This document shows, in pieces, positions 7,898 to 40,750 of a DNA stretch of 50,973 bases; within the stretch, counting starts at the first letter, position 1; each line of letters begins with the position of its first letter. The stretch is from an alpha proteobacterium SCGC AAA288-N07 (GTDB lineage: Bacteria; Pseudomonadota; Alphaproteobacteria; Pelagibacterales; Pelagibacteraceae). Location: NCBI GenBank assembly GCA_000513055.1, contig AZYB01000006.1, positions 1 through 50,973 on the forward strand, given 5' to 3'. The translations under genes were made by a program, and so were the position numbers. The notes beneath the pieces were generated by a model. It was not told the DNA's origin, searched no databases, and worked only from the letters and a program-made list of their open reading frames with translations.

Positions 7898-9385
7898 ATG
7901 AAAAATACTATTATTTTTGACAACAAAACTGGTTTTAGACAAGGAGAAACGTTAACTTTTTTCCTAAATGAAAATTTAGATTTTAAATTAGAAAGCAAAA
8001 TCTTTTCTGCCCAAATATTAGATAAAATTAAAGTTTTTTTGAAAAATTTAAAATCAAAAAAAAATAAAGAAAAAATTATAAGTTTTGATATATCGGAAAA
8101 AAATAGAGCTTTATTTATTATAGTAAAAGAAAAGTTGCCCCCAAATGATTTTGAAAAAATAGGAGCAAATTTTTTTTCTTATGTTAAAACAAACAAGATA
8201 AGCAAGATAAGCTTTTATTCTGATACGCTTGAATTAGTTAATTCTTACAAAAAAAATATAAATTTAACTCTAAATTTTATTCATGGATTCAATTTAAAAT
8301 CATATTCTTTTGATAAATATAAAACAAAAAATAAAAATGATTATTCTTTTTCATTAAAAACAATATCCTCTGAAAAAAATTTATTAAATAAAAATTACTT
8401 TAAATACAAAGCAATAGAGGCAGGTGTTTTTCAAACAAGGGATCTAGTATCAGAACCTCCAAATATTTTGTTTCCAAAAAAATATGTGGAAATAATAAAA
8501 AAACTTTCTTCTTTGGGTCTAAAAATCCAAGTTTATAACGAATTGAAAATGAAAAAATTGGGAATGAACTCTCTTTTAGGAGTAGGTCAAGGGAGTGTTA
8601 ATGAATCTTTTCTAGTCACCATTGAATGGAAAGGAAACAAGAGATCAAAAGAAAGACCGTTAGCATTTGTTGGAAAAGGTGTTTGCTTTGATACAGGAGG
8701 AATTTCTCTAAAGCCAGCTAGGTTCATGGAAGAAATGAAATATGATATGGCAGGATCAGCGGTAGTAGTTGGATTATTGAAAACTTTAGCTCTTAGGAAG
8801 GCAAAAATAAATGCCGTTGGAATAGTTGGACTAGTTGAAAATATGCCCGGTGGTAATGCACAGAGACCTGGAGATATTGTAAAATCCTATTCTGGTAAAA
8901 CCATCGAAGTTCTTAATACAGATGCAGAAGGAAGGTTAGTCTTAGCAGATGCCTTAAGTTTTACCGAAAAAAATTTTAAACCTAAATTTATAATTGATTT
9001 AGCTACTCTTACCGGGGCAATCATTGTGTCATTAGGAGAAGAATATGCGGGATTATTTTCAAACAATGATGATCTATCAAATAAAGTTTTTAAAGTTGGT
9101 AAAAAAATTGGTGAAAAAGTTTGGCGACTACCTTTAGATGAAAACTATAATAAATTAATGAATTCAAATGTAGCTGATATGCAAAATATTAATTATTCAG
9201 GTGGCGCTGGATCAATAACTGCAGCCCAATTTTTACAAAGATTCATAATTAATAAAACTCCTTGGGCACATTTAGATATTGCTGGGATGGCCTTTTCAAA
9301 AAAAGCTGCAAATCTAAATCCCAGCGGCGCAACAGGTTTTGGTGTACGACTTCTAAATAAATTAATAGAAGAATGTTATGAGTAG
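7898..9385 (+). CDS. pepA: Leucyl aminopeptidase (M17)
   Basis: Cytosolic M17 aminopeptidase releases N-terminal residues from peptides with two catalytic metal ions. The 495-residue length is normal. The divergent N-terminal regulatory domain (residues 1-160) precedes a catalytic domain with FVGKGVCFDTGGISLKP, KYDMAGSA and the family signature NTDAEGRLVLADAL, all intact with their metal-ligand Asp and Glu residues. The C-terminus reads NPSGATGFGVRLL. It is divergent from lptF and its end overlaps the ndk start by 8 bases, so the two are co-transcribed. Pairing of pepA with the lptFG block is common in proteobacteria. Identity is secure. Confidence 0.95.
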   Translation: MKNTIIFDNKTGFRQGETLTFFLNENLDFKLESKIFSAQILDKIKVFLKNLKSKKNKEKIISFDISEKNRALFIIVKEKLPPNDFEKIGANFFSYVKTNKISKISFYSDTLELVNSYKKNINLTLNFIHGFNLKSYSFDKYKTKNKNDYSFSLKTISSEKNLLNKNYFKYKAIEAGVFQTRDLVSEPPNILFPKKYVEIIKKLSSLGLKIQVYNELKMKKLGMNSLLGVGQGSVNESFLVTIEWKGNKRSKERPLAFVGKGVCFDTGGISLKPARFMEEMKYDMAGSAVVVGLLKTLALRKAKINAVGIVGLVENMPGGNAQRPGDIVKSYSGKTIEVLNTDAEGRLVLADALSFTEKNFKPKFIIDLATLTGAIIVSLGEEYAGLFSNNDDLSNKVFKVGKKIGEKVWRLPLDENYNKLMNSNVADMQNINYSGGAGSITAAQFLQRFIINKTPWAHLDIAGMAFSKKAANLNPSGATGFGVRLLNKLIEECYE

Positions 9386-9791
9386 CAATTCAATAGAAAG
9401 AACATTGTCTATTATCAAACCAGATGCAATTGAAAGACAACTAGAGACAAAAATAAAAAAAATTTTCTTAGATAATAAATTGAATATTGTTGATAGTAAA
9501 AAAGTACAATTATCTAAGAAAGAAGCAGAAGAATTTTATAAAGTACATCAAACAAAACCATTTTACGAGAAATTATGTTCTTATCTTTCTTCTGGGCCAA
9601 TAATTGCAATGATTTTAGATGGTGAAAATGCTATTCAAAGAAACAGGGACCTAATGGGTGCTACAGATCCTGAAAATGCAAAAGATGGTACAATTAGAAA
9701 AGTTTATGGAATTTCTATTGATAAAAATTCAGTACATGGGTCAGATAGTCTTATAAATGCTAAAGCAGAAATAGATTTTTTTTTTAGTTAA
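9378..9791 (+). CDS. ndk: Nucleoside diphosphate kinase
   Basis: Ndk balances nucleoside triphosphate pools by a ping-pong transfer through a phosphohistidine. The 137-residue protein shows RTLSIIKPDAIER at the N-terminus, RDLMGATDPENA in the nucleotide site and NSVHGSDS with the catalytic His near residue 117. The start overlaps pepA by 8 bases. The last residues are coded by a 10-base T run (DFFFS), but the frame is not disturbed. Identity is secure. Confidence 0.95.
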   Translation: MSSNSIERTLSIIKPDAIERQLETKIKKIFLDNKLNIVDSKKVQLSKKEAEEFYKVHQTKPFYEKLCSYLSSGPIIAMILDGENAIQRNRDLMGATDPENAKDGTIRKVYGISIDKNSVHGSDSLINAKAEIDFFFS

Positions 9792-9879
9792 TTAATATAT
9801 TTTATTAAATTATTAACATTGGAGGCCTTTTTCCATTATTTTTATAGGTAAAGTATTCTTTTTTAACTACTATTAGAAA

Positions 9880-10954
9880 ATGTTTATTTCTTTTTTGAAT
9901 ATATTTAAAAAAATTACCTATATTGTATTTATTTTTACATTCCTAAATATTATTTTATCGCAGCACTCTTCGGCTTCAAATCATATATTGGCTGTAAAAA
10001 AATTAGAAATTTCCAAAAAAATAGATTTAGAATTTTCAAGAAGTAAGATTATTGATGAAGCATTTAATAGAGCATTTTATAGACTATTAAGTCAAATTCT
10101 AAACTCAACAGATATCAAGAAATTAAAAAATGTTCATATGAAAGAAATAAAAGCTTTGATAGAAAATTTTAAAATTAAAAATGAAATTTTTAGGGAAAGC
10201 AAATATTATGCAAATTTTGATGTATATTTTAATAAAAATAAAATAAAACTTTTTTTAGAAAAAAAAAACTTATTTTATTCAAATCCAAGAAAAATATCAG
10301 TTTTATTTTTTCCGATTATTATTGAACAAGAAAATTTATATCTTTTTAATGAAAATATTTTCTATAAGTATTGGCTAAACAATAAAGATCAAAGCGGATC
10401 AATAAATTATATTATGCCTCTGGAGGACGTAGATGAAATGATGAAATTAATTAGTTCTCAAGAAAAACTAGAAGATTTAGACATAATTGATATTGCTGAA
10501 AAATATAACACAGAAAATTATATTTTAAGTTTAATATATTTAAAAAAAAAAAAAATTGAATTTTTTTTCTAAAATTAAATTTGAAGAATATAAAAAAAAT
10601 TCAAATTTAATTTTTTATGAAGTAGACATAAAAAATAAAGATTTAGTGGCCAATATAATAAAAAAAGCGAAAGTACAATTAAATGATATATGGAAAGATT
10701 TCAACGAAATAAATACTTCTATTAAATTATCAATAAATTTAATTTTAAACAGTAGAGACCCAGATAAAATTTCTAATTTTGAAAATATTTTAGCTAAAAT
10801 TGATGATATTGACACCTTTTTAATTAAAAAATTTGATTTAAACAAAACAGAATATGAAATTATTTATAATACAGATCCAAATAAACTTATAAAACAATTT
10901 TCTATTTATGGTTTCAAAATAGTTAATAATGAAAGTGGTTGGATAATTCAATGA
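9880..10954 (+). CDS. DUF2066-family exported protein, one frameshift
   Basis: The protein belongs by appearance to the DUF2066 family of alphaproteobacterial exported proteins of unknown role. It starts at 9880 with a hydrophobic signal sequence (residues 10-27) followed by [33 protein letters not shown]. The frame closes at 10572 and the second part continues in another frame to 10954. The break sits in a 14-base A run (10542-10555) followed by an 8-base T run (10561-10568); dropping one base from either gives a continuous protein of about 357 residues. The stop at 10954 lies just before the chimeric junction at 10968. The family name is from memory of the sequence pattern, so confidence is moderate. 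Confidence 0.6.
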
Positions 10955-29601: not shown

Positions 29602-30912
29602 ATGATCAAAATGATGAAAAATTCCTGGGCACTATTTATCGGAATCGGAATCATGATGATTGCCCATGGCCTACAAGGAAACTTAATGGGAATTAGGTCA
29701 GTAATCGAAAATTTTAATTTTATAGCTACAGGTATAATGATGTCAGGATATTACGTGGGATATTTTTTTGGTTCCAATATAGCTCCAAAACTGGTTTCAA
29801 GAGTCGGTCATATTAGAGTCTTTGCAGCTTTTGCATCCATGGCATCTCTAAGTATTTTAATTGTCGCTGCTTATGTAAATCCTGTTGTATGGACTTTTGC
29901 AAGATTTATAACAGGAATGTCCGTGGTAAGTTGTTTTGTTGTTGCTGAAAGTTGGCTCAATGATCGAGCAAACAATAGAACACGAGGCAAACTATTATCT
30001 GTCTACATGATCATAACTTTTTTAGGTTTGGCAGTGGGAATGCTTTTATTAAATTTTGATAGTCCAGAAAACTATAAACCTTTTATTTTAGTTTCAATTT
30101 TATTATCAATTGCGTTGGTGCCAATCCTGCTTACAAAACGTAAAGCTCCTAAATTCAAAAAAATAGGTACTTTGAAATTGAAAGAACTTTATAAAATTTC
30201 ACCCCTAGGCTGTGTTAGTTCTTTTTGCACAGGTATAATTCATTCGGCATTGTTTACATTGGCTGCCGTTTACGCTGCCACAGTGAACTTTAGTATTTTT
30301 GAAATTTCGTTATTATTATTTTTGATTACAATTGCGGGAGCTTTATTCCAATGGCCCATAGGTTATCTTTCTGATCAATTTGATCGAAGAGTCATTATAG
30401 TTTTATGTACTACAGTTAGTGCCGTTTTTTGTGTTTTATCAATTTTTGCATCAGGACATACATTTACTTCATTTCCAACAATGCAATATATAAATGTTGT
30501 TGTAGATCCTGGTGCTGACAAATTAATGTTTTTTATTTTTGTAACAGTCTACGCTGGTGCATCACTTTCTTTGTTCCCACTTAATATTGCACACACAAAT
30601 GATTTTGTTCCAAAAGAAAAATTCGTAGCCGCTGGAGGTGGTTTAAACTTTGTTTTTGGAATGGGAGCAATGGGTGGACCAATAATTTGTTCTGTTTTTA
30701 TGAACGAATATGGACCCAATAGTTTCTTTATTTTTCTACTTATTTTTCATATTATTATTGCTTTATTTGCTCTTTATAGGATTACTAAAAGAAAAACTGA
30801 AGATAATCCTGAGTCAACATTTACACCATTACCTAAAAATATTACTCCATTGGGTATGGAGCTTGATCCAGATACTGGTGTTAATTTATCAAACGTTGAT
30901 AAAAAAAAATGA
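29602..30912 (+). CDS. Major facilitator superfamily transporter
   Basis: A 436-residue twelve-helix MFS protein (segments from about residue 8 to 395). It includes ESWLNDRANNRTRGKLLSVYM between helices 4 and 5 and YLSDQFDRRVIIV after helix 8, an MFS motif-A-like loop, resembling the YcaD group. The substrate is unknown. Its TGA overlaps the ATG of the truncated small ORF at 30909 (ATGA), so the ancestral small gene was probably coupled to it. It is the last core gene before the island. Confidence 0.85.
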   Translation: MIKMMKNSWALFIGIGIMMIAHGLQGNLMGIRSVIENFNFIATGIMMSGYYVGYFFGSNIAPKLVSRVGHIRVFAAFASMASLSILIVAAYVNPVVWTFARFITGMSVVSCFVVAESWLNDRANNRTRGKLLSVYMIITFLGLAVGMLLLNFDSPENYKPFILVSILLSIALVPILLTKRKAPKFKKIGTLKLKELYKISPLGCVSSFCTGIIHSALFTLAAVYAATVNFSIFEISLLLFLITIAGALFQWPIGYLSDQFDRRVIIVLCTTVSAVFCVLSIFASGHTFTSFPTMQYINVVVDPGADKLMFFIFVTVYAGASLSLFPLNIAHTNDFVPKEKFVAAGGGLNFVFGMGAMGGPIICSVFMNEYGPNSFFIFLLIFHIIIALFALYRITKRKTEDNPESTFTPLPKNITPLGMELDPDTGVNLSNVDKKK

Positions 30913-31046
30913 ACAAAGAAAACGCAGGTAAACTCTGGAAAATCATACAGGAAGCTGGTGATTATTTACTGTGTCAGCGGTTCACCTTGGTTGACCTTTA
31001 CTCACCTTGGTTCACACTAGTTACGCGGACAATTTACAATTCATAA
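30909..31046 (+). pseudogene. 5' remnant A of the island target gene
   Basis: The ORF starts MNKENAGKLWKIIQEAGDYL, matching the first 20 residues of the intact 75-residue protein at 40523, then departs into LCQRFTLVDLYS. The DNA match ends at base 30969 after GATTATTTAC. Residues 3-7 differ from copies B, C and D, which agree with one another. The ATGA overlap with the MFS gene suggests this is the native 5' end of the target gene, cut off from its 3' part (now at 40584-40750) by the island. Confidence 0.8.
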
Positions 31047-31158
31047 AAAATTAATCGCATAAAGATTCACTAAAAATACCTCTGAAACTCGAAACAAACT
31101 CGAAACAAAAGAGATAAATCAAATGGTCAATTTCTACGCCTTTTGATAGCATTTGATT
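30970..31158 (+). repeat. Module-start arm, copy A
   Basis: Four 10-base units related to GGTTCACCTT (30979-31018), then TTACGCGG and an imperfect partner CGCATAA, then CTCGAAAC at 31088 and 31099 (11-base period), AAAAGAGATAAATCA, and a leader TTTTGATAGCATTTGATT ending at the cargo ATG. Copies at 34333 and 39112 follow the same order. The leader is shared with copy C, so the arm may also carry the cargo promoter. Confidence 0.85.
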
Positions 31159-31192
31159 ATGAAAAAGCTTTTAGGGATCTTGGTTCTGGGTT
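31159..31192 (+). repeat. Signal-peptide repeat copy 1 (outer type)
   Basis: A 34-base unit starting ATGAAAAAGCTTTTAGGG and ending TTCTGGGTT. It encodes MKKLLGILVLG in frame with the sugar dehydrogenase. It shares AAAAAGC with copy 5; copies 2-4 have AAAAAAC. Confidence 0.95.
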
Positions 31193-32241
31193 TGTTGTTT
31201 ATTTTTGCTTCGAATAGCCCGGAGGTTAAAGCAGAGGATTTTAAATTAACTAAAATTACGGAAAATCTTAAGTCACCGTGGAGCTTATCTTTTATTAATC
31301 AAAATGAAGCCTTAATAACAGAAAAATCAGGGAATATAATTTATATCAATATTGAAAAGCAAGAATTAAAAAATATAAAACATAACCTAAAAGTTCTAGA
31401 ATATGGACAGGGCGGTTTATTAGATATCTTGTATTATGATAAAAATGTATTTGTTTCTTATAATGAAAAAAGAAAAGATTTTGAATCAAGCACATCAATT
31501 GCTAAAGGAAGATTCAATAAGAATAAAATATATTTTAAAAATATATTTCGAGCAGAACCTCCAATAGAATCCAGATATCATTTTGGATCAAGACTTGCCA
31601 TTAAAGACAACTATTTATTTGCCTCCGTTGGAGAAAGAATGCAAGGTGCGATTGCTCAAGATCCAACAAAACATCCTGGAAGCATTATTAGAATTTATTT
31701 GAACGGAAGTATTCCAAAGGATAATCCAAAATTTAAAGGTAAGGACAATTGGTTACCTGAGATATATCAAATTGGTATAAGAAATCCGCAAGGTTTAACT
31801 TTATCTCCATTTGACCATAAAATTTATATGAGCAATCATGGCGCTAAAGGCGGAGACTGGTTTGGGGAGGCAAAATTCGGTGAAAATTATGGATGGCCTA
31901 TTTTAGGCTGGGGTGGAAAAAATTATTCAGGCACCGAAATAGGTCCAAAGTGGAAACCTGGCTTTACCAAAGCAATTCAGTATTGGGTTCCTTCAATTGC
32001 AACAAGTGCCATTACAATCTATGAAGGTGAAGAATTTAAAGAGTGGAATGAGCAAGCTCTAGTTACATCTTTAAAAGACCGGTCCTTGAGAAAATTAATT
32101 TTTAAGGACGTAAAGGAAGTCAAAGAGGATATTATTTTTAAAAACAAAATTGGAAGAATTAGAGATATTCAAGTTCAACCTTATACTGGTAAATTATTTT
32201 TTCTAAGTGATAACGGTTCTTTATGGAAAATGGAGAAGTAG
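31159..32241 (+). CDS. PQQ-type soluble aldose sugar dehydrogenase-like protein (YliI family)
   Basis: A predicted exported beta-propeller dehydrogenase of about 360 residues. The ATG at 31159 opens a signal peptide (MKKLLGILVLGLLFIFASNS, cleavage after VKAE or close). Mature-protein motifs include LKSPWSLSFINQNEALITEKSG, HFGSRLAI, GIRNPQGLTLSPF, SNHGAKGGDW and FGENYGWPILGWG, as in glucose/sorbosone dehydrogenases. The ligand and sugar are not determinable. The first 34 coding bases are signal-peptide repeat copy 1. It is the first cargo gene of module 1, starting at the conserved leader. Confidence 0.85.
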   Translation: MKKLLGILVLGLLFIFASNSPEVKAEDFKLTKITENLKSPWSLSFINQNEALITEKSGNIIYINIEKQELKNIKHNLKVLEYGQGGLLDILYYDKNVFVSYNEKRKDFESSTSIAKGRFNKNKIYFKNIFRAEPPIESRYHFGSRLAIKDNYLFASVGERMQGAIAQDPTKHPGSIIRIYLNGSIPKDNPKFKGKDNWLPEIYQIGIRNPQGLTLSPFDHKIYMSNHGAKGGDWFGEAKFGENYGWPILGWGGKNYSGTEIGPKWKPGFTKAIQYWVPSIATSAITIYEGEEFKEWNEQALVTSLKDRSLRKLIFKDVKEVKEDIIFKNKIGRIRDIQVQPYTGKLFFLSDNGSLWKMEK

Positions 32242-32310
32242 GAAGGAGCGTTCTGTTGTCCTATGGCATTAACCAAGCACCCTGAAACTTGAGGCGAAAT
32301 ATATAAAAAA

Positions 32311-32484
32311 ATGGTACCATATGAAAGAAAGAAAAATATGAAAAAATTATCAAAAAAAAAGAAAATACGACAAATCAAAATGTTAAATAAAAAACTACAA
32401 AAGATTAAGCTAAGAAAAAATAAAAGAGTGAAAGACGAGAAAAAAGCAGCCGAACGAGAACGTACGTTGCCAAAAAATCGTTAG
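32311..32484 (+). CDS. 57-residue very basic small ORF
   Basis: An ORF from ATG 32311 to TAG 32484 encodes MVPYERKKNMKKLSKKKK and continues Lys/Arg-rich to TLPKNR. I do not recognise it. The leader and first codons resemble the region at 33024-33057 (both have AAAATG-TACC-TAT followed by AAGAAAG), so it has a divergent relative in the same module. There is no clear ribosome site, and the strong A bias could produce such an ORF by chance. It lies between the sugar dehydrogenase and the GNAT gene. Confidence 0.4.
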   Translation: MVPYERKKNMKKLSKKKKIRQIKMLNKKLQKIKLRKNKRVKDEKKAAERERTLPKNR

Positions 32485-32499
32485 GTATAGAATTATTAT

Positions 32500-32533
32500 A
32501 TGAAAAAACTTTTAGGGATCTTGGTTCTGGGTT
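32500..32533 (+). repeat. Signal-peptide repeat copy 2 (inner type, orphan)
   Basis: The unit is identical to copies 3 and 4 over 34 bases. Its own frame stops after 14 codons. The GNAT start codon at 32537 follows in another frame, so it is not used as a signal peptide there. Confidence 0.95.
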
Positions 32534-32536
32534 TAG

Positions 32537-32968
32537 ATGATTAGGGAAATTCAATCAAAAGATAAAGAGCAATGGGAAAAACTTTATAGAGGCTATGCAG
32601 ATTTTTATAAAGTAGAAATGAATGACAAAATTCTTCAAATGGTATGGAATTGGTTGCATGATAAAAATCATGAAGTTGAAGGTCTTGTTTATGAAGTTGA
32701 TGGAAATATAGTTGGTCTTACTCATTATAGAAGAATGCCAAGTCCATTAAGAGGACAAGACATTGGTTTTCTCGACGATTTATTTGTAGACCCAAAACAC
32801 AGAGGTCAAAAGATTGGTGAAAAATTAATCAGTAAAATGAAAGAAATATCAAAGTCTAAAGGTTGGAATTTAGTGAGATGGATAACACGAAATGATAATG
32901 TTAGAGCCAAATCTTTATATGATAAAGTTTCAGAAAAAACAAATTGGGATGTATACGAATTAAAATGA
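32537..32968 (+). CDS. GNAT-family N-acetyltransferase
   Basis: A 143-residue cytoplasmic GNAT protein, predicted to move an acetyl group from acetyl-CoA to an amine. The CoA-binding motif is DDLFVDPKHRGQKIGEKLI (about residues 75-93), with GLTHYRRMPSP before it and NVRAKSLYDKVSEKTNW near the end. The acceptor is unknown. The ATG at 32537 lies immediately after repeat copy 2, and the TGA at 32966-32968 is supplied by the first bases of repeat copy 3 (ATGA). The gene therefore sits exactly between two repeats. Confidence 0.85.
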   Translation: MIREIQSKDKEQWEKLYRGYADFYKVEMNDKILQMVWNWLHDKNHEVEGLVYEVDGNIVGLTHYRRMPSPLRGQDIGFLDDLFVDPKHRGQKIGEKLISKMKEISKSKGWNLVRWITRNDNVRAKSLYDKVSEKTNWDVYELK

Positions 32969-32998
32969 AAAAACTTTTAGGGATCTTGGTTCTGGGTT
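32965..32998 (+). repeat. Signal-peptide repeat copy 3 (inner type, orphan)
   Basis: The unit overlaps the GNAT stop codon as ATGA. Its own frame ends after 11 codons at TGA, so it encodes only MKKLLGILVLG. Confidence 0.95.
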
Positions 32999-33054
32999 GA
33001 TTATGAAAAAAATATTATAAAAAATGATACCGTATAGAAGAAAGGAAAAATATT

Positions 33055-33168
33055 ATGTCACAAAGATACAGCGGAAAATCACGTAAAGATTCTAGCACAA
33101 TGAAAAAATCCAAACTTTCTTTGTTAGAAAAAAGGAAAATAAAAAGAGAAAAAAAGAAGAAACGATAG
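33055..33168 (+). CDS. 37-residue basic small ORF
   Basis: An ORF from ATG 33055 to TAG 33168 encodes MSQRYSGKSRKDSSTMKKSK followed by a Lys-rich tail. An AAAGGAAAAA stretch upstream could act as a ribosome site. I do not recognise the product. It may be a nucleic-acid-binding small protein or a chance ORF in A-rich DNA. The upstream bases resemble the leader of the 32311 ORF. Confidence 0.35.
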   Translation: MSQRYSGKSRKDSSTMKKSKLSLLEKRKIKREKKKKR

Positions 33169-33177
33169 ATTTACAAA

Positions 33178-33330
33178 ATGGAAGAAGAAGATAAAAAGGC
33201 CGAGCGCGACCTAGAAATTCTTAAGAACTACCAAAAAAAAGAAGCTAAAAGTATAAAAAAAATATTTATAACACTTTTTTTATTAGGTGCATTGATTTAC
33301 ATAGTGAAATTTCTTATGGGGTTTTTTTAA
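33178..33330 (+). CDS. 50-residue single-helix membrane protein
   Basis: An ORF from ATG 33178 to TAA 33330 encodes a charged N-terminal part (MEEEDKKAERDLEILKNYQK, residues 1-20) and one hydrophobic helix at about 31-46 (IFITLFLLGALIYIVKF). The charge pattern suggests a cytoplasmic N-terminus and a membrane anchor. The family and role are unknown. The stop lies one base before repeat copy 4. Confidence 0.5.
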   Translation: MEEEDKKAERDLEILKNYQKKEAKSIKKIFITLFLLGALIYIVKFLMGFF

Positions 33331-33331
33331 T

Positions 33332-33365
33332 ATGAAAAAACTTTTAGGGATCTTGGTTCTGGGTT
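33332..33365 (+). repeat. Signal-peptide repeat copy 4 (inner type)
   Basis: The unit is in frame with the lyase gene and supplies its signal peptide start. It is identical to copies 2 and 3 over 34 bases. Confidence 0.95.
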
Positions 33366-34174
33366 TATTATGTTTTAATTCAAATGCTATAGCGGAAAGC
33401 AATAAATTTAAATCTAAAGATATAAAAGGTTTTAAAAAAATAAGACTTTCAATGCATAATAAAAAAGTTAATAGAATAAAGCAGGTTAAAAAGTCAGATG
33501 GATTTCCTGTTTATGAGGGAGATACAAGTATTCAATTTACTGTAAATCGAGAAGATGCTGGCTGTGGAGATGGAACATCCAAAGATTTAGAATGTGATGG
33601 CAAAGGAAATAGAAGCAGACAAGAATTAAAATTTGATGATATGAATTTAAAGAATAAAGAACATATTTACGAATATGCAATTTATTTTGATGAAAATTAT
33701 AAAAGTATGGAAAAAGGTGCAGTTTGTGTACTTGGGCAAATGCACACAATAAAGTATTCAAAAAAAGGTTGTCATAGTTGCTGTCATTTTTGGATGCAAG
33801 ATACAAAATATAAAGGAGAACATCAGTACACCTGGGCAAGTAAAGCGGCTACTTCATCAGATCTAGTTATAATTGGAAAAATTGAAGATTTAAAAGGGAA
33901 GTGGACATATATCAAACTTCATGTTTTATATAAATTAGATGATACTGGGCGTTTTAGAATTTATAAAAATAATAAAATAATTGCTGATCTTAAAAATATA
34001 AAAACCTTAGCTGACACATGTGATAGAGGCTATTTAAAACTTGGAATATACAGGCATAGAACCATTGATTATTGGAATTCTGATTGGGAGAGTTTGCAGG
34101 ATCAAACAGTTTACTATGATAGCATTGTATTTAGAAAACCTAAAAAAGATGAAAAATTTAAAAATTTACAATGA
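33332..34174 (+). CDS. Secreted polysaccharide lyase-like protein (heparin lyase/PL20 fold)
   Basis: A predicted exported protein of 280 residues with a signal peptide (MKKLLGILVLGLLCFNSNAIA, cleavage about residue 21). The mature part looks like a beta-jellyroll polysaccharide lyase (Polysacc_lyase group): RSRQELKF with Arg-Glu, a YEYAIYFDE strand, GQMHTIKY with His, GKWTYIKLHVLYK, GYLKLGIYR and YYDSIVFRK. Six cysteines are present, including SCC. The substrate is not determinable; acidic polysaccharides are usual for the fold. The first 34 coding bases are repeat copy 4, and the TGA is supplied by repeat copy 5. Confidence 0.72.
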   Translation: MKKLLGILVLGLLCFNSNAIAESNKFKSKDIKGFKKIRLSMHNKKVNRIKQVKKSDGFPVYEGDTSIQFTVNREDAGCGDGTSKDLECDGKGNRSRQELKFDDMNLKNKEHIYEYAIYFDENYKSMEKGAVCVLGQMHTIKYSKKGCHSCCHFWMQDTKYKGEHQYTWASKAATSSDLVIIGKIEDLKGKWTYIKLHVLYKLDDTGRFRIYKNNKIIADLKNIKTLADTCDRGYLKLGIYRHRTIDYWNSDWESLQDQTVYYDSIVFRKPKKDEKFKNLQ

Positions 34175-34204
34175 AAAAGCTTTTAGGGATCTTGGTTCTG
34201 GGTT
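34171..34204 (+). repeat. Signal-peptide repeat copy 5 (outer type, orphan)
   Basis: The unit overlaps the lyase stop codon as ATGA. It carries AAAAAGC like copy 1. It runs straight into the module-end arm (TATAGGATTATGTGGG), so it marks the end of the cargo. Confidence 0.95.
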
Positions 34205-34271
34205 ATAGGATTATGTGGGATAACTCGAAACATACTCGAAACAAAAGAGATAAAGCAGAATTTGAGTGAGT
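34204..34271 (+). repeat. Module-end arm, copy B (CTCGAAAC type)
   Basis: TATAGGATTATGTGGGATAA is followed by CTCGAAAC at 34224 and 34235 (11-base period), then AAAAGAGATAAAGCA and a short leader to the ATG of fragment B. The box sequence matches the start arm of the same module (31088) and not the start arm beside it (34441). Confidence 0.9.
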
Positions 34272-34373
34272 ATGAATGAAGAAAAGTCGCGCCAGCTATG
34301 GAAAATCATACAGGAAGCTGGTGATTATTTACTGTGTCAGCGGTTCACCTTGGTTCACCTTGGTTCACAGTAG
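34272..34373 (+). pseudogene. 5' fragment B of the island target gene
   Basis: The fragment encodes MNEEKSRQLWKIIQEAGDYL, identical in protein to the start of the intact gene at 40523, then LCQRFTLVHLGSQ and a stop. The DNA match ends at 34332. It is judged to be the element-borne replacement 5' end carried by module 1 and cut off by module 2. Confidence 0.85.
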
Positions 34374-34480
34374 TTATGCGGACAATTTAAAATTCATAAA
34401 AAATCAACCGCATAAAGTTTCACTTAAAACACCTTTAAAACTCGACACACACTCGACACAAAAGAGATAAATCAAAATGG
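34333..34480 (+). repeat. Module-start arm, copy B (CTCGACAC type)
   Basis: It has three 10-base units GGTTCACCTT, GGTTCACCTT and GGTTCACAGT (34342-34371), a perfect 8-base inverted repeat TTATGCGG (34374-34381) / CCGCATAA (34408-34415) with a 26-base loop, then CTCGACAC at 34441 and 34452 and AAAAGAGATAAATCAAAATGG. From 34481 to the methyltransferase start at 34555 I see only A/T-rich leader. Confidence 0.88.
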
Positions 34481-34554
34481 TTTATTTACGCTCTATAATG
34501 AAGACCTAATATAAAATAATCAAAAAATTAAATTTTATTATATTATGGAGTGCA

Positions 34555-36150
34555 ATGAATTTCAAAAAGTACGAAAGTGATCAAAAATTAAGAGGAGGAT
34601 ATTACACTCCCCAAAATCTATGTGATTTTATATCTTCATTTGTCATTGATAATAAATGCAAAGAAATTTTAGAACCAAGTTTTGGAGATGGTAATTTTCT
34701 GCGAAGTGCACTTAGGGGGAAAAAAAATATTATATTAACTGGAATTGAAATTAATAAAGATGAATTTAAAAAGTATAAAAATACAAATAAATTTAAGCAT
34801 AATTTAGTTAATGAAGACTTTTTAGAATGGTATTTAAGTAATGATAATCGTAAATATGATGGAATAATAGGAAATCCTCCATTTGTTAGATATCAATATT
34901 TAGATGATCATTCTCAGTTAAATTCAAAAAAAATTTTTAAAAAATTTAACTTATCATTTACAATGCATACAAATTTATGGGTACCATTTTTTATTGCATC
35001 TATAGACTTGCTAAAACCAGGTGGAAAACTTGGAATGATTATTCCAAATGAAATATTATATTTACCACATGCAAAATCATTAAGGTCTTTTTTGAAACTA
35101 AAAATGTCTAAAATTATTATTTTAGATTGTAATGAGTTATTATTTGAAAATACACTACAAGGCACATCTGTAATATTTGCTACAAAAAAAAGAGATGATA
35201 AAGAAAAATCATTTGTATCAATCAATAGATTAAATAAAGATGACTTGGATAAAAAAAATATCTATAAAATTTTAAAATATTCAACTTTTAAAGAAATTGG
35301 TAATGAAGGCAAATGGATGCTTTATTTGCTAAACGAAGAAGAAATAAAAACACTTAACTATTTAAAAAATAACAAAGAGATTAAAACTTTTAACGATATT
35401 GCTTCTGCGGATGTTGGTATTGTCACTGGGGCCAACAAATTTTTTCTAATCAATAAAGAGGTGGCTGATAAATATCAGCTTGAAAAGTACACCTACCCAA
35501 TGTTTGGTAAAAGTAATCATTGCAAGGGAATTATCTATGATAATGAACAACATAATAAAAATATTGAAAAAAATAATCCTTCTTTTTTTTTAAGAATAAA
35601 AAAAGATACTAAAATTAATTTACCATTAAAAAAATATTTACAAATTGGTGAAAAAGAAAAATTTCAAAAAAGGTACAAGTGTAGAATAAGAAAACCTTGG
35701 TATTCTGTACCATCTGTATACTCAACATCATTAGCATTATTAAAAAGGTGCCATAAATTCCCAAGATTAATATTTAATAAAGCAAAAGCATACACAACTG
35801 ATACGGCCTATAGAATTAAATCTTTTGATATAAATGAAGAAAAATTATCTTTCTGTTTTATAAATAGTCTGACAGCTTTGACAGCAGAACTTGAGGGAAG
35901 ACATTACGCTGGTGGCGTACTTGAGCTTACACCAAGTGAGATTGAAAAATTATTAGTTCCTTTGCCAAAAAAATTAAGATTTAATATTAATAAACTTAAT
36001 AAAGAATTTTTTAATAATAAAGATGAAAATACAATATTAACAATTCAGAACAATATAATTTCTAAATCTTTAAAAATTAATTTAAAACACTTTAAAATTA
36101 TACATAAAGCCTTACTCAAACTTCAAAAGAGACGATTCAGAGATGAATAG
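34555..36150 (+). CDS. Adenine-N6 DNA methyltransferase (Eco57I/TaqI-like)
   Basis: A 531-residue class I DNA methyltransferase. The N-terminal RGGYYTPQNLCDFI is typical of adenine methylases. The SAM-binding motif EPSFGDGNFL is at residues 40-49 and the catalytic NPPF at 107-110. The C-terminal half (about 260-480) is likely a target-recognition region. It overlaps the next gene by 8 bases. As in the Eco57I system, a separate methylase plus a fused nuclease-methylase suggests one type II system that modifies both strands of an asymmetric site. The target is unknown. Confidence 0.85.
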   Translation: MNFKKYESDQKLRGGYYTPQNLCDFISSFVIDNKCKEILEPSFGDGNFLRSALRGKKNIILTGIEINKDEFKKYKNTNKFKHNLVNEDFLEWYLSNDNRKYDGIIGNPPFVRYQYLDDHSQLNSKKIFKKFNLSFTMHTNLWVPFFIASIDLLKPGGKLGMIIPNEILYLPHAKSLRSFLKLKMSKIIILDCNELLFENTLQGTSVIFATKKRDDKEKSFVSINRLNKDDLDKKNIYKILKYSTFKEIGNEGKWMLYLLNEEEIKTLNYLKNNKEIKTFNDIASADVGIVTGANKFFLINKEVADKYQLEKYTYPMFGKSNHCKGIIYDNEQHNKNIEKNNPSFFLRIKKDTKINLPLKKYLQIGEKEKFQKRYKCRIRKPWYSVPSVYSTSLALLKRCHKFPRLIFNKAKAYTTDTAYRIKSFDINEEKLSFCFINSLTALTAELEGRHYAGGVLELTPSEIEKLLVPLPKKLRFNINKLNKEFFNNKDENTILTIQNNIISKSLKINLKHFKIIHKALLKLQKRRFRDE

Positions 36151-38974
36151 TGAAAAGTTAAAATTATTAATTCAAAATTTTAAAGAAAATTCACCTGAAA
36201 TAACTTCAAATAACTCAAAATATACCGAGAGTGATACAAGAAGTGAGTTTATCGATCCATTTTTTAAATTATTAAGATGGGATATGGATAATTCTCAAGG
36301 ATTAAATTCATACCATAAAGAAGTAAAAAGAGAAAATTTTAATTCAATTAATGAAGAGGAAAGCCAAATTCCAGATTATATTTTTAAAATTAAAAATAAC
36401 AAAAAATTTATAATAGAAGCTAAACGAGCCTCAATTAATATCAAAAATAAAAACGATACATTTCAAATTAGGCAATATGGATATTCAGCTGGATTGCCTA
36501 TTTCTGCAATAACAAATTTTAAAGATATAAGAATTTTTGATACAAGAATAGAACCAAAAATTACTGATGAAATTGATAACTCAATATTGTTCGAATGCAA
36601 TTACCAAAATTATATAAATAATATTGAAACTCTTGAACTATTTCTTGGAAGAGAAAATGTTGTTTCACCTGAGTGGAATAAGCTTGTTAAATTTCAAACA
36701 GATAAAAGACCATCTATTAACAAAAACTTTTTAAATCAAATTGACAAATGGAGACTCAAACTAGCAAATTCAATAAATGATACAATTGAGATAATTAATT
36801 TAGAAGAAATTAATTACTTGAGTCAAAAAATTGTAAATAGATTTCTTTTTATAAGAGTCTGCGAAGATAGAGAATTAACCAAATTTACAAAGCTTAAAGA
36901 CTCATGTTTGAATTATAATCAATTAATATTACTTTTTGAAAATTATAATCAAAAATTTAACACTCATATATTCAAATTAGATAACGAGGTAAATTTATTA
37001 AAAAAAGAAAGTTTCTTTAATTTATTAAAAAAGATAATTAATGAACTTTATCACCCGTACTCTCCATATAATTTTTCTGTGTTTTATGCTGATTTTTTCG
37101 GAGATATATATGAAGATTATTTAACCAAAAGTATAAAAAAAGAAAATAATAGCTTAATTTTATCGGAAAAAGAAGAATATTTGGATAGGGATATAGTTTC
37201 AACACCGAATCCAATTGTAGATAATCTTACAGAAAAAACTTTTAAAAATTATTTTAATACAGATATCAACATACCAAGAGTCCTAGATCCAGCAGTTGGT
37301 TCGGGACGTTTCCTTTTATCAGCTTATGACTCAATATTATACAATCTATATGATGATGCAGTAATTACTGTAAAAAAAAAAATAGAAATACTAGAAAATT
37401 TATTCGGGATTGATAAAGATTATCTGGCAATAGATACAACAAAATTTTCTCTCTATATAAAAATTTTAGAAGATGAAAATTATGAGTCGATTAATAATGA
37501 TAATAATTTATTACCAAATTTAGATAAAAACATATTTTTTGGTAATTCTATAATTGATGCAGATTTTCCCGACCAACATAAAGATATACAGCCTTTAAAT
37601 TGGGAAAATATTTTTGAAAATAAAAAATTCAATATTATAATTGGCAATCCACCTTACGTAAAAACAGAGGATATAAAAAAAAATAAAAAAGAATATAATT
37701 ATTTAAAAAATAAATATTTAGCTAGTTATAAACAATTTGATAAATATTTCTTTTTTATAGAAAAATCACTTCAATATTTAAATACCAATGGGCTTTTGAG
37801 CTTTGTTATACCAAATAAATGGATAAATAATGTTGCTGGCTCTAAACTAAGAAAATTATTAAGTAAAAATATATATCAATTAAATAACTTTGGGAATGAA
37901 ATTATTTTTGAGAACAAATCAAACTATATTTGCATTCTATATTTATCTGTAAATCAAAGTAAAAGTTTTAAATACTCTTTTATAGAAAATTACAATGAAT
38001 GGTTAGTAAATGATGCTAAACACATTGAAATTAAAAAAGATTTCATAAATTTTGAAAAACCTCTAGTTTTACCATCAAATCAAGAAGAAAAATTAATACT
38101 TGATAAAATTTTTAATAAATCAAAAACAATTAATAGTGACCTAATACTAACAGGAATACAAACTTCTAAAGATGAAATTTATGTAATTAAGGATTTTATT
38201 TTAAAAAATGATTTTATTTATTTTTCAAAAGAATCTAAAAAATGGAAAATTGAAAAAAAAATATGCAAACCATATATTTTTGACACAATAAATATCATCA
38301 ATTATAAAATTTTTAAAAGTGATTCTTTATTAATATTTCCTTATGATCTAGATGACTCTGGCAATGTGAAGATTATAAATAAAAAAACTATGATAAGTAA
38401 TTTCCCTAACACATTTAAATATTTATCATTTTATAAAGAAAAACTTCTAGAAAGAAATGTCAATCCTCCATTTTCAGATAATGAAGATGATTTTTATAAA
38501 TATGGTAGATCACAAAATATTTTTGTGTTATCAAAAAAGCCAAAAATAATTTTAGCAGTACTCCAAACTGGAAATAAATATGCTTTAGATTATAATGGAT
38601 TATATTATACAGCAGGAGGCACCGCAGGTATAATCTCGATTATAAATAATGAAGACAATGACTATATATTTTTTATTTTAGGACTACTTGATCAAAAAGA
38701 AATTGAACTTTTTCTCAGAAAAAGAGGCAGCACATTTAGAGGAGGCTATTATTCAAGAGGAAAAGATGTAATTAGTGATTTGCCTGTTCCTATAATTGAT
38801 ACACCAGCAGATAAGCAATTCTATAGTGAGATTATCAAAAATGTTAAGATTATTATTGAAGAAAAAAATAAAAATAATTTAGACACTAAAGATAAGCTAA
38901 TTTCTGAAAATTTAATTGGCACTTCTAGACAAAAAGTAAAAAATTTATTTTTATCTCTATGGAAAAGAAGTTAA
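36143..38974 (+). CDS. Type IIG-like restriction-modification enzyme (nuclease plus methylase)
   Basis: A 943-residue fused enzyme. Residues about 34-100 hold a PD-(D/E)xK-type nuclease pattern (Pro77-Asp78, then Glu92 and Lys94 in FIIEAKRAS). A helical linker follows (about 190-330). The methylase core has LDPAVGSGRFLL at 381-392 and NPPY at 502-505. The C-terminal part (about 650-930, with RKRGSTFRGGYYSRG) is probably the target-recognition domain. It is expected to cut unmodified foreign DNA near its site. Start ATG 36143 lies within the end of the upstream methylase. A BREX PglX is less likely because the nuclease motif is intact and no other BREX gene is present. Confidence 0.85.
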   Translation: MNSEKLKLLIQNFKENSPEITSNNSKYTESDTRSEFIDPFFKLLRWDMDNSQGLNSYHKEVKRENFNSINEEESQIPDYIFKIKNNKKFIIEAKRASINIKNKNDTFQIRQYGYSAGLPISAITNFKDIRIFDTRIEPKITDEIDNSILFECNYQNYINNIETLELFLGRENVVSPEWNKLVKFQTDKRPSINKNFLNQIDKWRLKLANSINDTIEIINLEEINYLSQKIVNRFLFIRVCEDRELTKFTKLKDSCLNYNQLILLFENYNQKFNTHIFKLDNEVNLLKKESFFNLLKKIINELYHPYSPYNFSVFYADFFGDIYEDYLTKSIKKENNSLILSEKEEYLDRDIVSTPNPIVDNLTEKTFKNYFNTDINIPRVLDPAVGSGRFLLSAYDSILYNLYDDAVITVKKKIEILENLFGIDKDYLAIDTTKFSLYIKILEDENYESINNDNNLLPNLDKNIFFGNSIIDADFPDQHKDIQPLNWENIFENKKFNIIIGNPPYVKTEDIKKNKKEYNYLKNKYLASYKQFDKYFFFIEKSLQYLNTNGLLSFVIPNKWINNVAGSKLRKLLSKNIYQLNNFGNEIIFENKSNYICILYLSVNQSKSFKYSFIENYNEWLVNDAKHIEIKKDFINFEKPLVLPSNQEEKLILDKIFNKSKTINSDLILTGIQTSKDEIYVIKDFILKNDFIYFSKESKKWKIEKKICKPYIFDTINIINYKIFKSDSLLIFPYDLDDSGNVKIINKKTMISNFPNTFKYLSFYKEKLLERNVNPPFSDNEDDFYKYGRSQNIFVLSKKPKIILAVLQTGNKYALDYNGLYYTAGGTAGIISIINNEDNDYIFFILGLLDQKEIELFLRKRGSTFRGGYYSRGKDVISDLPVPIIDTPADKQFYSEIIKNVKIIIEEKNKNNLDTKDKLISENLIGTSRQKVKNLFLSLWKRS

Positions 38975-38981
38975 TCTATTT

Positions 38982-39050
38982 TATAGGATTATGTGGGATA
39001 AACTCGACACATACTCGACACAAAAGAGATAAAGCAGAAATTGAGTGGGT
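38982..39050 (+). repeat. Module-end arm, copy C (CTCGACAC type)
   Basis: TATAGGATTATGTGGGATAA is followed by CTCGACAC at 39003 and 39014, AAAAGAGATAAAGCA, and a leader to the ATG of fragment C. The boxes match the start arm of module 2 at 34441. Confidence 0.9.
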
Positions 39051-39119
39051 ATGAACGAAGAAAAGTCGCGCCAACTCTGGAAAATCATACAGGAAGCTGG
39101 TGATTATTTACTTGGTTAG
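39051..39119 (+). pseudogene. 5' fragment C of the island target gene
   Basis: The fragment encodes MNEEKSRQLWKIIQEAGDYL, then LG and a stop. The DNA match with the intact gene ends at 39111. It is interpreted as the replacement 5' end brought by module 2, itself cut off by module 3. Confidence 0.85.
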
Positions 39120-39300
39120 CGGTTCACCTTGGTTCACCTTGATTGACCTTGGTTCACAGTAGTTATGCGGGCCATTTAAAATTCATAGAAAATAAATCGC
39201 ATAAAGATTCACTAAAAACACTGTTCAAACTTGAAACAAACTTGAAACAAATGAGATAAATCAAATGGTCTATTCTAGAGCTTTTTGATAACATTTGATC
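39112..39300 (+). repeat. Module-start arm, copy C (CTTGAAAC type)
   Basis: It has four 10-base units at 39121-39160 (GGTTCACCTT twice, GATTGACCTT, GGTTCACAGT), TTATGCGG with a partner CGCATAA, CTTGAAAC at 39230 and 39241, then a leader TTTTTGATAACATTTGATC ending at the cargo ATG. The leader closely matches that of module 1. Confidence 0.88.
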
Positions 39301-39789
39301 ATGAAAAATTTTTTTAGCCTCATAATTGTTGTTTTTTTACTCAACGGATGTGTTGGAGTAGAAAGTAATTTAAAAAAAGGAAATATAAGAATTGGTATGT
39401 ATAAAAGTGAATTTTGTTATGTAGAAACAACTTTATCTGGTCCTTGTTCAGCTACTTTTATGGAAGGTTTTAATAATGTATCTAGAGGACTGTACTATCC
39501 AAAATTAAAAAAAGAAATAATGTGGGCTAAAAAACCTAAATCATTTTTTGTTTTTAAGAATGTAAGTTCCCCATTTAATTATGATACTTTTTCTGTTGGT
39601 GATGGGAAATTGGAAAAAATATTTAAAACTAAAGAAGAAGCTATAAAGTATGTTTCTAGCAAAGATTCATTAATAAAAGAAGATTATATACGTATAGCAA
39701 AACAAGGTTGTAAAGCCTCAGGTTTAGAACCTGGCACAGAAGAGTTTGCTGAATGTGCGCTCAAAAGAATTAAAGAATTATCAGAGTGA
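39301..39789 (+). CDS. Predicted lipoprotein with C-terminal Cys motif, unknown function
   Basis: A 162-residue predicted lipoprotein. MKNFFSLIIVVFLLNGC ends in a lipobox with Cys17. I do not recognise the mature domain (GNIRIGMYKSEFCYVETTL). The C-terminus has GCKASGLEPGTEEFAECALKR, a two-Cys pattern also found in the next gene. The ATG at 39301 directly follows the conserved leader. The TGA overlaps the GTG start of the next gene, implying coupling. Confidence 0.7.
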   Translation: MKNFFSLIIVVFLLNGCVGVESNLKKGNIRIGMYKSEFCYVETTLSGPCSATFMEGFNNVSRGLYYPKLKKEIMWAKKPKSFFVFKNVSSPFNYDTFSVGDGKLEKIFKTKEEAIKYVSSKDSLIKEDYIRIAKQGCKASGLEPGTEEFAECALKRIKELSE

Positions 39790-40445
39790 CTTGTAAAAAA
39801 ATTATAGGGATAATATTTTTAAGTTTTGTAATCTGCAATTATAGCGTTGCTGAAGAAACGATTTTTAATTACTCGTCTGACTCAACATATGGTAATGATG
39901 GAAGAATATCTGGCAATGTGGGAAAAATAGATGTTGCGGTTGCGATTGAAAAAGCAAAAAAAGTTTGTAAAGATTTAGGTTTTGATCCTGAGTCTGAAAA
40001 ATTTACTAAATGTGGATTAGATTTAGTAGAAATAGCAAGTGGTTTTGATATGGCAAGAAATCAAGAATATCTTTTATCTAAAAAATTATATTCAAAAGAA
40101 AAAATTGATATGACATTTAGCTATGAGTCTAAGTCAGGTGAAAAAATGAATGAAGAAAGTAAGTGGACAAAATTCTGGAAAGGTGCTGCTTGGATATTAT
40201 ATGAATATGGTGATGAAATCTTTGCATTAGCTCTTGATCTTAAATACGACACAAATTTAAGCGGTTATAATACAACTAACCAAGTTAGCACTAACAGAGG
40301 AGGCTTGAAATGTGTAGCTCAGAGAGTTGGCACTGTAGTACATCAAAATTGTAAGGGTGCTGATGGAACACATATATATTGCATGTTTCAACAAATTGGA
40401 AAATCGAATGTAAAAAGAACTTGCAGAGATAAATCAAGGTCTTAA
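39786..40445 (+). CDS. Exported protein with shared Cys motif, unknown function
   Basis: A 219-residue predicted exported protein with a signal peptide (KKIIGIIFLSFVICNYSVAE). Residues about 55-85 contain VCKDLGFDPESEKFTKCGLD, the same spacing as the Cys motif of the upstream lipoprotein. The C-terminal part is Cys-rich (LKCVAQRVGTVVHQNCKG, IYCMFQQIG, RTCRD). The start GTG at 39786 lies in the upstream stop (GAGTGA). No family is recognised. The shared motif and coupling suggest the two act together at the envelope. Confidence 0.65.
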   Translation: MTCKKIIGIIFLSFVICNYSVAEETIFNYSSDSTYGNDGRISGNVGKIDVAVAIEKAKKVCKDLGFDPESEKFTKCGLDLVEIASGFDMARNQEYLLSKKLYSKEKIDMTFSYESKSGEKMNEESKWTKFWKGAAWILYEYGDEIFALALDLKYDTNLSGYNTTNQVSTNRGGLKCVAQRVGTVVHQNCKGADGTHIYCMFQQIGKSNVKRTCRDKSRS

Positions 40446-40454
40446 AAAAAGCTT

Positions 40455-40522
40455 TATAGGATTATGTGGGATAACTTGAAACATACTTGAAACAAAAGAG
40501 ATAAATCAAGATTTGTACTGGT
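40455..40522 (+). repeat. Module-end arm, copy D (CTTGAAAC type)
   Basis: TATAGGATTATGTGGGATAA is followed by CTTGAAAC at 40475 and 40486, AAAAGAGATAAATCA, and a leader to the ATG at 40523. The boxes match the start arm of module 3. This arm is now the 5' flank of the intact small gene and may provide its promoter. Confidence 0.9.
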
Positions 40523-40750
40523 ATGAACGAAGAAAAGTCGCGCCAACTCTGGAAAATCATACAGGAAGCTGGTGATTATTTACAAGGACAACTACCCGAT
40601 CATCCTAATCATCCAAAAGGAAGAAATCCCTATGCTCATGTGGCAATATGCGTGAAATCAAAATTCAAGGAGAGTTACAAAGACATAGAAGATAAAAAAT
40701 TTAATGAAGTAGTTGAGTATATTGAGTTCTTAAAAAATAATCCGAGTTAA
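40523..40750 (+). CDS. Small conserved-looking protein, island target gene (75 residues)
   Basis: An intact 75-residue cytoplasmic protein: MNEEKSRQLWKIIQEAGDYL, then QGQLPDHPNHPKGRNPYAHV and a helical C-terminus to FLKNNPS. I do not recognise a family. The first 20 codons are repeated at 30909, 34272 and 39051, each cut at the same place. It is therefore the gene whose 5' end serves as integration site: codons 1-20 appear to come from module 3, and codons 21-75 are the ancestral 3' part. It converges on the creatinase gene with no gap. Confidence 0.75.
   Translation: MNEEKSRQLWKIIQEAGDYLQGQLPDHPNHPKGRNPYAHVAICVKSKFKESYKDIEDKKFNEVVEYIEFLKNNPS

Follow-up and report, generated by a model that had tools for sequence, protein, structure and literature searches.

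We describe here three cargo modules, 3.4, 4.8 and 1.5 kb in length and all without an integrase gene, which lie in tandem in a 50,973-nt stretch of DNA (contig AZYB01000006.1, the whole of which is called the window in the following) from the Pelagibacteraceae (SAR11) genome SCGC AAA288-N07, which measures 955 kb and is 66% complete. Each module carries the same double box of about 24 bp at both of its ends, and the word spelled by the boxes differs from module to module. In our best explanation, to which we give a probability of roughly 0.86, the boxes would be arm-type sites of P4-like integrases, and the modules would be non-autonomous att elements. The firmest part of this explanation is that the boxes are arm-type sites of an integrase, which we regard as highly probable. 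SAR11 are the commonest bacteria of the ocean, and their streamlined genomes were believed to be poor in mobile elements.

In the window, the boxes of modules 1 to 3 read as the 8-mers CTCGAAAC, CTCGACAC and CTTGAAAC, each recurring after 11 bp, and the arms formed by them sit within repeats which are 86-90% identical. The general layout of an arm is ACT with six variable letters, the same again 11 or 12 bp further on, and then GAGATAAA. A preliminary description of this DNA had located six box pairs correctly: the exact arm matches begin at 31087, 34223, 34440, 39002, 39229 and 40474, and the 8-mers one base later. Its period of 11 bp holds in the window but not as a general rule, since across the family it is 11 or 12 bp. 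It had also noted that the words agree within a module and differ between neighbours; indeed, start and end words are equal in 12 of 12 letters in all three modules, and arms only about 220 bp apart are unlike. All arms have the same orientation, start arms about 120 bp past a core sequence and end arms about 50-80 bp ahead of one. With 6 matches on the expected strand of the window's genome against 1 for a reversed-pattern control, and about 60 matches in 118 genomes of the family against 8, the box pattern is not due to chance. Between core and start arm lies a second array, not named in the preliminary description, of 10-bp direct repeats (TTCACCTTGG...; 30980-31015, 34343-34370 and 39120-39160). 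It is found in all modules and in the circular elements described below, does not track the box word, and is a candidate for excisionase sites. The features of the window are as follows:

29602..30912 (+): MFS transporter gene of the host, flanking the modules on the left
30909..30969 (+): J0, the host's own 5' end of the 75-amino-acid (aa) gene, severed from the remainder by the modules
30938..30968 (+): core copy 1 (GAAAATCATACAGGAAGCTGGTGATTATTTA), downstream of the host MFS gene
30980..31015 (+): 10-bp repeat array of module 1 close to the core; candidate for excisionase sites
31087..31118 (+): module 1 start arm, CTCGAAAC twice and GAGATAAA; exact arm match
31153..34174 (+): module 1 cargo, pyrroloquinoline quinone (PQQ)-type glucose/sorbosone dehydrogenase, GNAT-like protein, polysaccharide lyase and small open reading frames (ORFs), without integrase
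34223..34254 (+): module 1 end arm, CTCGAAAC twice and GAGATAAA; exact arm match
34301..34331 (+): core copy 2, in a 5' gene end carried by a module
34440..34471 (+): module 2 start arm, CTCGACAC twice; exact arm match
34555..38974 (+): module 2 cargo, restriction-modification genes for an Eco57I-type methyltransferase and another protein, Eco57I/MmeI-like
39002..39033 (+): module 2 end arm, CTCGACAC twice; exact arm match
39080..39110 (+): core copy 3
39229..39260 (+): module 3 start arm, CTTGAAAC twice; exact arm match
39295..40445 (+): module 3 cargo, a 164-aa and a 219-aa ORF, both small and with no Pfam match
40474..40505 (+): module 3 end arm, CTTGAAAC twice; exact arm match
40552..40582 (+): core copy 4, within the intact gene
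40523..40750 (+): intact 75-aa target gene (MNEEKSRQLWKIIQEAGDYL...), first codons from module 3

The target of the modules is a conserved 75-aa gene, whose sole intact copy in the window is the one at 40523-40750. It had no match in Pfam or PHROG, and the relatives which share it are SAR11 single-cell genomes. The core of 31 bp is a part of its codons and is present in four identical copies in the window (at 30938, 34301, 39080 and 40552). The distance from the end of the MFS gene to the intact 75-aa gene is 0-9 bp in seven species genomes free of arms and 9,614 bp in the window; thus, the insertion of the three modules took place within the 5' end of this gene. Each module supplied a replacement 5' end, and the intact gene is now fed by module 3.

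The preliminary description had proposed looking for covariation of start and end words in other genomes. We used 80 species genomes, which are the best matches to a query with the target gene and not an unbiased sample, together with about 40 further stretches. This resulted in 52 distinct intervals from core to core, and in 41 of these both arms could be read. In these 41 modules, start and end words are equal on average in 10.5 of 12 letters, compared to 5.9 when shuffled, and none of 20,000 shuffles reached the observed mean. With one module per distinct start word (n=27) the values are 10.6 and 5.7, again with 0 of 20,000, and for 22 of the 27 start words the end arm of the same module matches strictly better than all others of 23. 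Across a core there is no covariation: arms facing each other over one core (17 pairs) have a mean of 6.06 of 12 equal letters, no better than chance. Gene conversion between adjacent repeats, against which the preliminary description had already argued, is ruled out by the fact that the agreement of facing arms does not exceed that of random pairs. An arm was found ahead of the 75-aa gene in 42 of the 80 species genomes, and tandem accretion amounts to three modules in the window and in L094, and to two in others.

A degenerate pattern of the core peptide detected one viral contig, L125, in which the core has a matching end arm on one side and, on the other, the beginning of a tyrosine recombinase gene, the first codons of which form the start arm (MNEKLDIKLELGEIKQ). 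Relatives with the same core are L189 and L190 (virome) and L129 (a SAR11 contig), and relatives at other sites are L193 (virome, another core), L191 (virome, tRNA-Leu) and L130 (a SAR11 genome, integrated at tRNA-Leu). Five of the elements (L125, L189, L190, L193 and L191) resemble circular contigs in having end repeats of 29-99 bp. In these circles one core, the single one in L125, L189 and L190, is flanked by matching boxes on both sides, which is the attP layout envisaged earlier for a module closed at its core. The words across the core correspond in all seven elements, if a third box within the integrase gene is allowed for. The elements of approximately 9 kb also encode an archaeo-eukaryotic primase (AEP)/DUF5906 primase-helicase, a RusA-like protein, small helix-turn-helix (HTH)-like proteins beside the integrase, and small ORFs. 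No capsid gene was noticed in the minority of their proteins that was scanned, and no relaxase or conjugation genes were noticed in the part of the integrase-element proteins that was scanned. We consider L125, L129, L189, L190, L191 and L193 candidates for undescribed SAR11 satellites.

The integrase of these relatives matches PHROG integrases (E 8e-23) and was found in 3 of the 397 family genomes searched; among INPHARED phages it had no relative. Scans of viral contigs by integrase and arm patterns yielded few further elements. The arm pattern gave seven stretches, with L125 and L140 as true matches; L139, L141, L142 and L143 were dismissed as one coding sequence, and L138 as an unrelated chance match. 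Further, a genome from the same genus as the window has N-terminal integrase fragments next to tRNA genes (L174, 5418-6011; L175, 8779-9201).

Several integrase-bearing elements share their arms exactly with modules. The 33-bp end arm of L129 is identical to those of L052 and L069, that of L189 to one in L094, and that of L190 to those of L156 and L162; the 32-bp end arm of L130 is identical to that of L225. In addition, remnants of the lost integrase gene, namely its ribosome-binding site and first codons, are still present in some module start arms, as in that of L069, which retains GGAGAAAGTATGACAGAAAAACTAGGCCAC of L129. The start arms of the modules descend from the start of an integrase gene. 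One could still regard the modules as dead relics, with arms inherited from ancient autonomous elements and nothing to mobilise them now, and the lack of an integrase in the modules and in most host genomes as well as some degenerate start arms (L069, L086) are in line with this. However, neutral decay should unmatch the two ends, whereas the words are matched letter for letter in most modules despite diverged flanks, and three virome or attP-form elements have arms identical to those of present modules. We thus find this view unlikely, and a mobilisation of the modules in trans at the present day likely. The preliminary description had suggested that each module once depended on a recombinase with its own arm specificity. 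An integrase with an arm-binding domain indeed exists, and the word tracks this domain (see below), but "once depended" is probably too modest: since attP-form elements share exact arms with modules, the helpers look contemporary. Because the integrase is normally absent from host genomes, the modules would have to rely on an element that enters the cell.

In a structure model of the L125 integrase (mean predicted local distance difference test score, pLDDT, 73; 84-91 over most of the N-terminal domain), residues 25-131 match P4-like arm-type domains (3ju0, Z 9.8, root-mean-square deviation (rmsd) 2.1; 3jtz, Z 9.7, rmsd 1.8; 3rmp, Z 9.2), including those of the HAI7 (Z 9.8) and HPI (Z 9.7) integrases. 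The rest of the model matches Tn1549/lambda integrases (Z 13 for Tn1549 Int). The integrases are thus predicted to be of the P4-like tyrosine type with an arm-binding N-terminal domain. For seven integrases we compared protein and word distances, the arm domain being taken past the codons overlapping the boxes and the word from the non-coding arm. The arm-domain distance is correlated with the word distance (r=0.65, exact Mantel permutation p=0.0004), compared to r=0.24 and p=0.12 for the catalytic domain. Moreover, the catalytic domain of L125 is 70-73% identical to those of L129, L189 and L190, which have the same core, and its arm domain only 38-43%; with L193, which has another core but the same CTCGA-type words, the arm domain shares 64% identity. 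By these identities, L125 looks like a natural arm-domain swap. Among L129, L189 and L190, the arm domain is close to saturation at synonymous sites (0.69-0.93) and the catalytic part is not (0.30-0.38), so that arm domains were probably exchanged between elements. We do not claim rapid evolution of the arm domain by selection alone, since the synonymous sites are saturated there too, which points to exchange of old domains.

Alternatively, the boxes could be operators of a regulator of the cargo or the target gene, or sites of an accessory recombination factor such as an excisionase, and not of the integrase. The start arms are located 50-80 bp ahead of the first cargo start and the end arms ahead of the target gene, a double box with an 11-bp period would also suit a dimeric regulator, and the small HTH-like proteins encoded next to the integrases could be such factors. 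But the boxes are present at both ends whatever gene follows, and this with three core sequences that are unrelated to each other; the integrase reading frame overlaps them and contains a third copy farther inside; and their word tracks the integrase arm domain in a comparison that covers integrase domains. This makes a regulator or excisionase improbable as the reader of the boxes.

In 20 modules with distinct words, the per-position agreement between the two ends is in excess only from the first box to just past the second, and there is no excess in the 30 bp on either side. The matched stretch spans -11 to about +12 around the second ACT and covers both boxes. Since the agreement stops at the box edges, this is the footprint of a binding site and not a copied tract. 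That recombination or gene conversion keeps the arms of one module alike, without selection by a protein, is even less probable than the operators, although arm-to-arm recombination occurs (a 227-bp module without cargo in L083 and L117, a hybrid internal arm in L167) and words are more alike in modules than in autonomous elements, for the flanks are specific to the position and not to the module, no conversion tract is seen, facing arms 200 bp apart stay unhomogenised, and such a process does not predict that the word tracks the integrase arm domain. The 227-bp "solo" module itself (L083, 9803-10030; L117, 1531-1758) has a single arm between two cores, similar to a solo long terminal repeat, and is what one would expect if the start arm of a module recombines with its end arm.

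Several observations weigh against boxes read by an integrase and modules moved in trans. The link between domain and word is based on only seven integrases, which are related to each other. A PF00589 search of the genome to which the window belongs, at a completeness of only 66%, revealed no integrase, and thus a helper is hypothetical for this cell. The words of the window have no exact partner among the integrases, the nearest being L193 (second box CTCGAAAC), which has another core. Further, L082, L149 and the module of L094 at 8130-10030 have unlike words at their two ends, and L167 (8678-14558) holds two additional internal arms. Because one further arm of each word lies inside, L167 is a composite. 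The odd module of L094 is filled with near-identical signal-peptide starts, which could recombine and swap ends.

Integrase arm sites at the ends of non-autonomous modules would suggest the following mechanism. A module would still have all parts of an attP (end arm, 5' end of the gene, core, near-core array and start arm) and would have lost the integrase gene, with attL and attR retained. A related element of about 9 kb would supply the integrase in trans, and the integrase would bind both arms of a module whose word it reads, bend the DNA, and excise or integrate the module at the shared core. As all cores in an array are alike, it would be the arm word which decides which module moves. Every integration would give the target gene a new 5' end, and by this the gene would stay intact and tandem arrays could grow. 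Whether the words give truly independent addresses within one array is doubtful, and we propose it tentatively. With similar reserve, it is tempting to speculate about an "addressed" SAR11 mobilome, in which integrase-less cassettes use few docking cores and the code between arm domain and word evolves as a swapped unit, independently of the catalytic domain. If true, each cassette family would have an orthogonal address, different helper satellites would each mobilise single cassettes of one array, and by diversifying the code helpers may evade hitch-hiking cassettes.

Modules are not restricted to the 75-aa gene. From the genome-wide arm matches we read fifteen stretches, and seven of these held modules at other sites, with words matched in 11-12 of 12 letters and a flanking core located in six. 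Five are at tRNA-Leu(TAA) (L225, L226, L227, L231 and L232); L228 is near a tRNA-Leu, where the flanking core repeat was not located; and L224 is at a terminator-like site, which is also the core of the circle L193. This third integration site is a terminator-like hairpin, GGCGCTTAAATTAAGCGCC (L224, minus strand, 8506 and 9975; L193), for which an Rfam search gave no match.

In the 92 proteins encoded by modules, restriction-modification and helicase types are commonest (type I HsdR/M/S, Eco57I/MmeI, SWI2/SNF2), in addition to peptidases, a polysaccharide lyase and numerous short secreted proteins. The integrase profile had no match in any module, including those at other sites. Module 1 of the window contains five near-identical signal-peptide starts (ATGAAAAA[AG]CTTTTAGGGATCTTGGTTCTGGGTT, MKKLLGILVLGL) at 31158, 32499, 32964, 33331 and 34170, the first and the last just inside its arms, and similar starts recur in the cargo of many SAR11 modules. 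Possibly, they represent a second level of cassette shuffling through homologous recombination.

These modules are important for several reasons. About half of the 80 sampled species genomes carry a module arm at one site, often with restriction-modification cargo, and the many cassettes at a common docking site may move independently of each other. The matched words offer a direct computational way of assigning integrases to the cassettes that they serve. Last but not least, thanks to the natural arm-domain swap the code by which tyrosine integrases recognise their arms can be put to the test, and the elements could be a source of orthogonal integrases sharing one core.

Among known systems, the Tn916/Tn1549 family has paired DR2 arm repeats at both ends, which are bound by the N-terminus of Int, and DR1 excisionase sites nearer to the core. 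The SAR11 elements are similar in their paired arm repeats at each end, a second class of repeats, and a catalytic part resembling Tn1549 Int. They differ in strict site specificity, in that no conjugation genes were noticed, and in that integrase-less copies far outnumber integrase-bearing ones. With lambda- and P4-like attP arms (PDB 3rmp, 3jtz, 3ju0) they share direct-repeat arm sites on both sides of the core and an N-terminal domain of the same fold. In contrast to these, the SAR11 words are extremely diverse on one core, the arm sites overlap the first integrase codons, and arm domain and words would exchange as a unit, independently of the catalytic domain. Tycheposons (cited in PMC10872708) are likewise cargo islands of streamlined marine hosts linked to a tyrosine recombinase, some at tRNA genes. 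The modules of the window are only 1.5-5 kb and have no recombinase, no tRNA gene is present in the window as a border, and the tycheposon features for which we tested the window were not found. In the papers that we searched we found no account of integrase-less att modules or arm words in SAR11; a description is possible in Hackl 2023 (tycheposons) or in work on phage-parasitising elements in marine virus particles.

Accretion arrays of cis-mobilizable elements (CIMEs) were described for streptococcal families of integrative and conjugative or integrative and mobilizable elements (PMC5704250). Like CIMEs, the SAR11 modules have no integration genes, keep both att sites and accumulate as tandem arrays at a single target gene through site-specific recombination (PMC5704250). 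Unlike them, they are very small and very common, with matched and diversified arm words, and their integrase-bearing relatives are about 9 kb in size and have a primase-helicase, with no conjugation genes noticed. In summary, as far as can be told from sequence, the modules seem to combine attP arms with CIME accretion, and, leaving aside descent from a conjugative or mobilizable element, the defining features of both that we tested are present. Novel aspects are the scale in SAR11, the diversity of words on a shared core, and a code from domain to word that is visible in nature.

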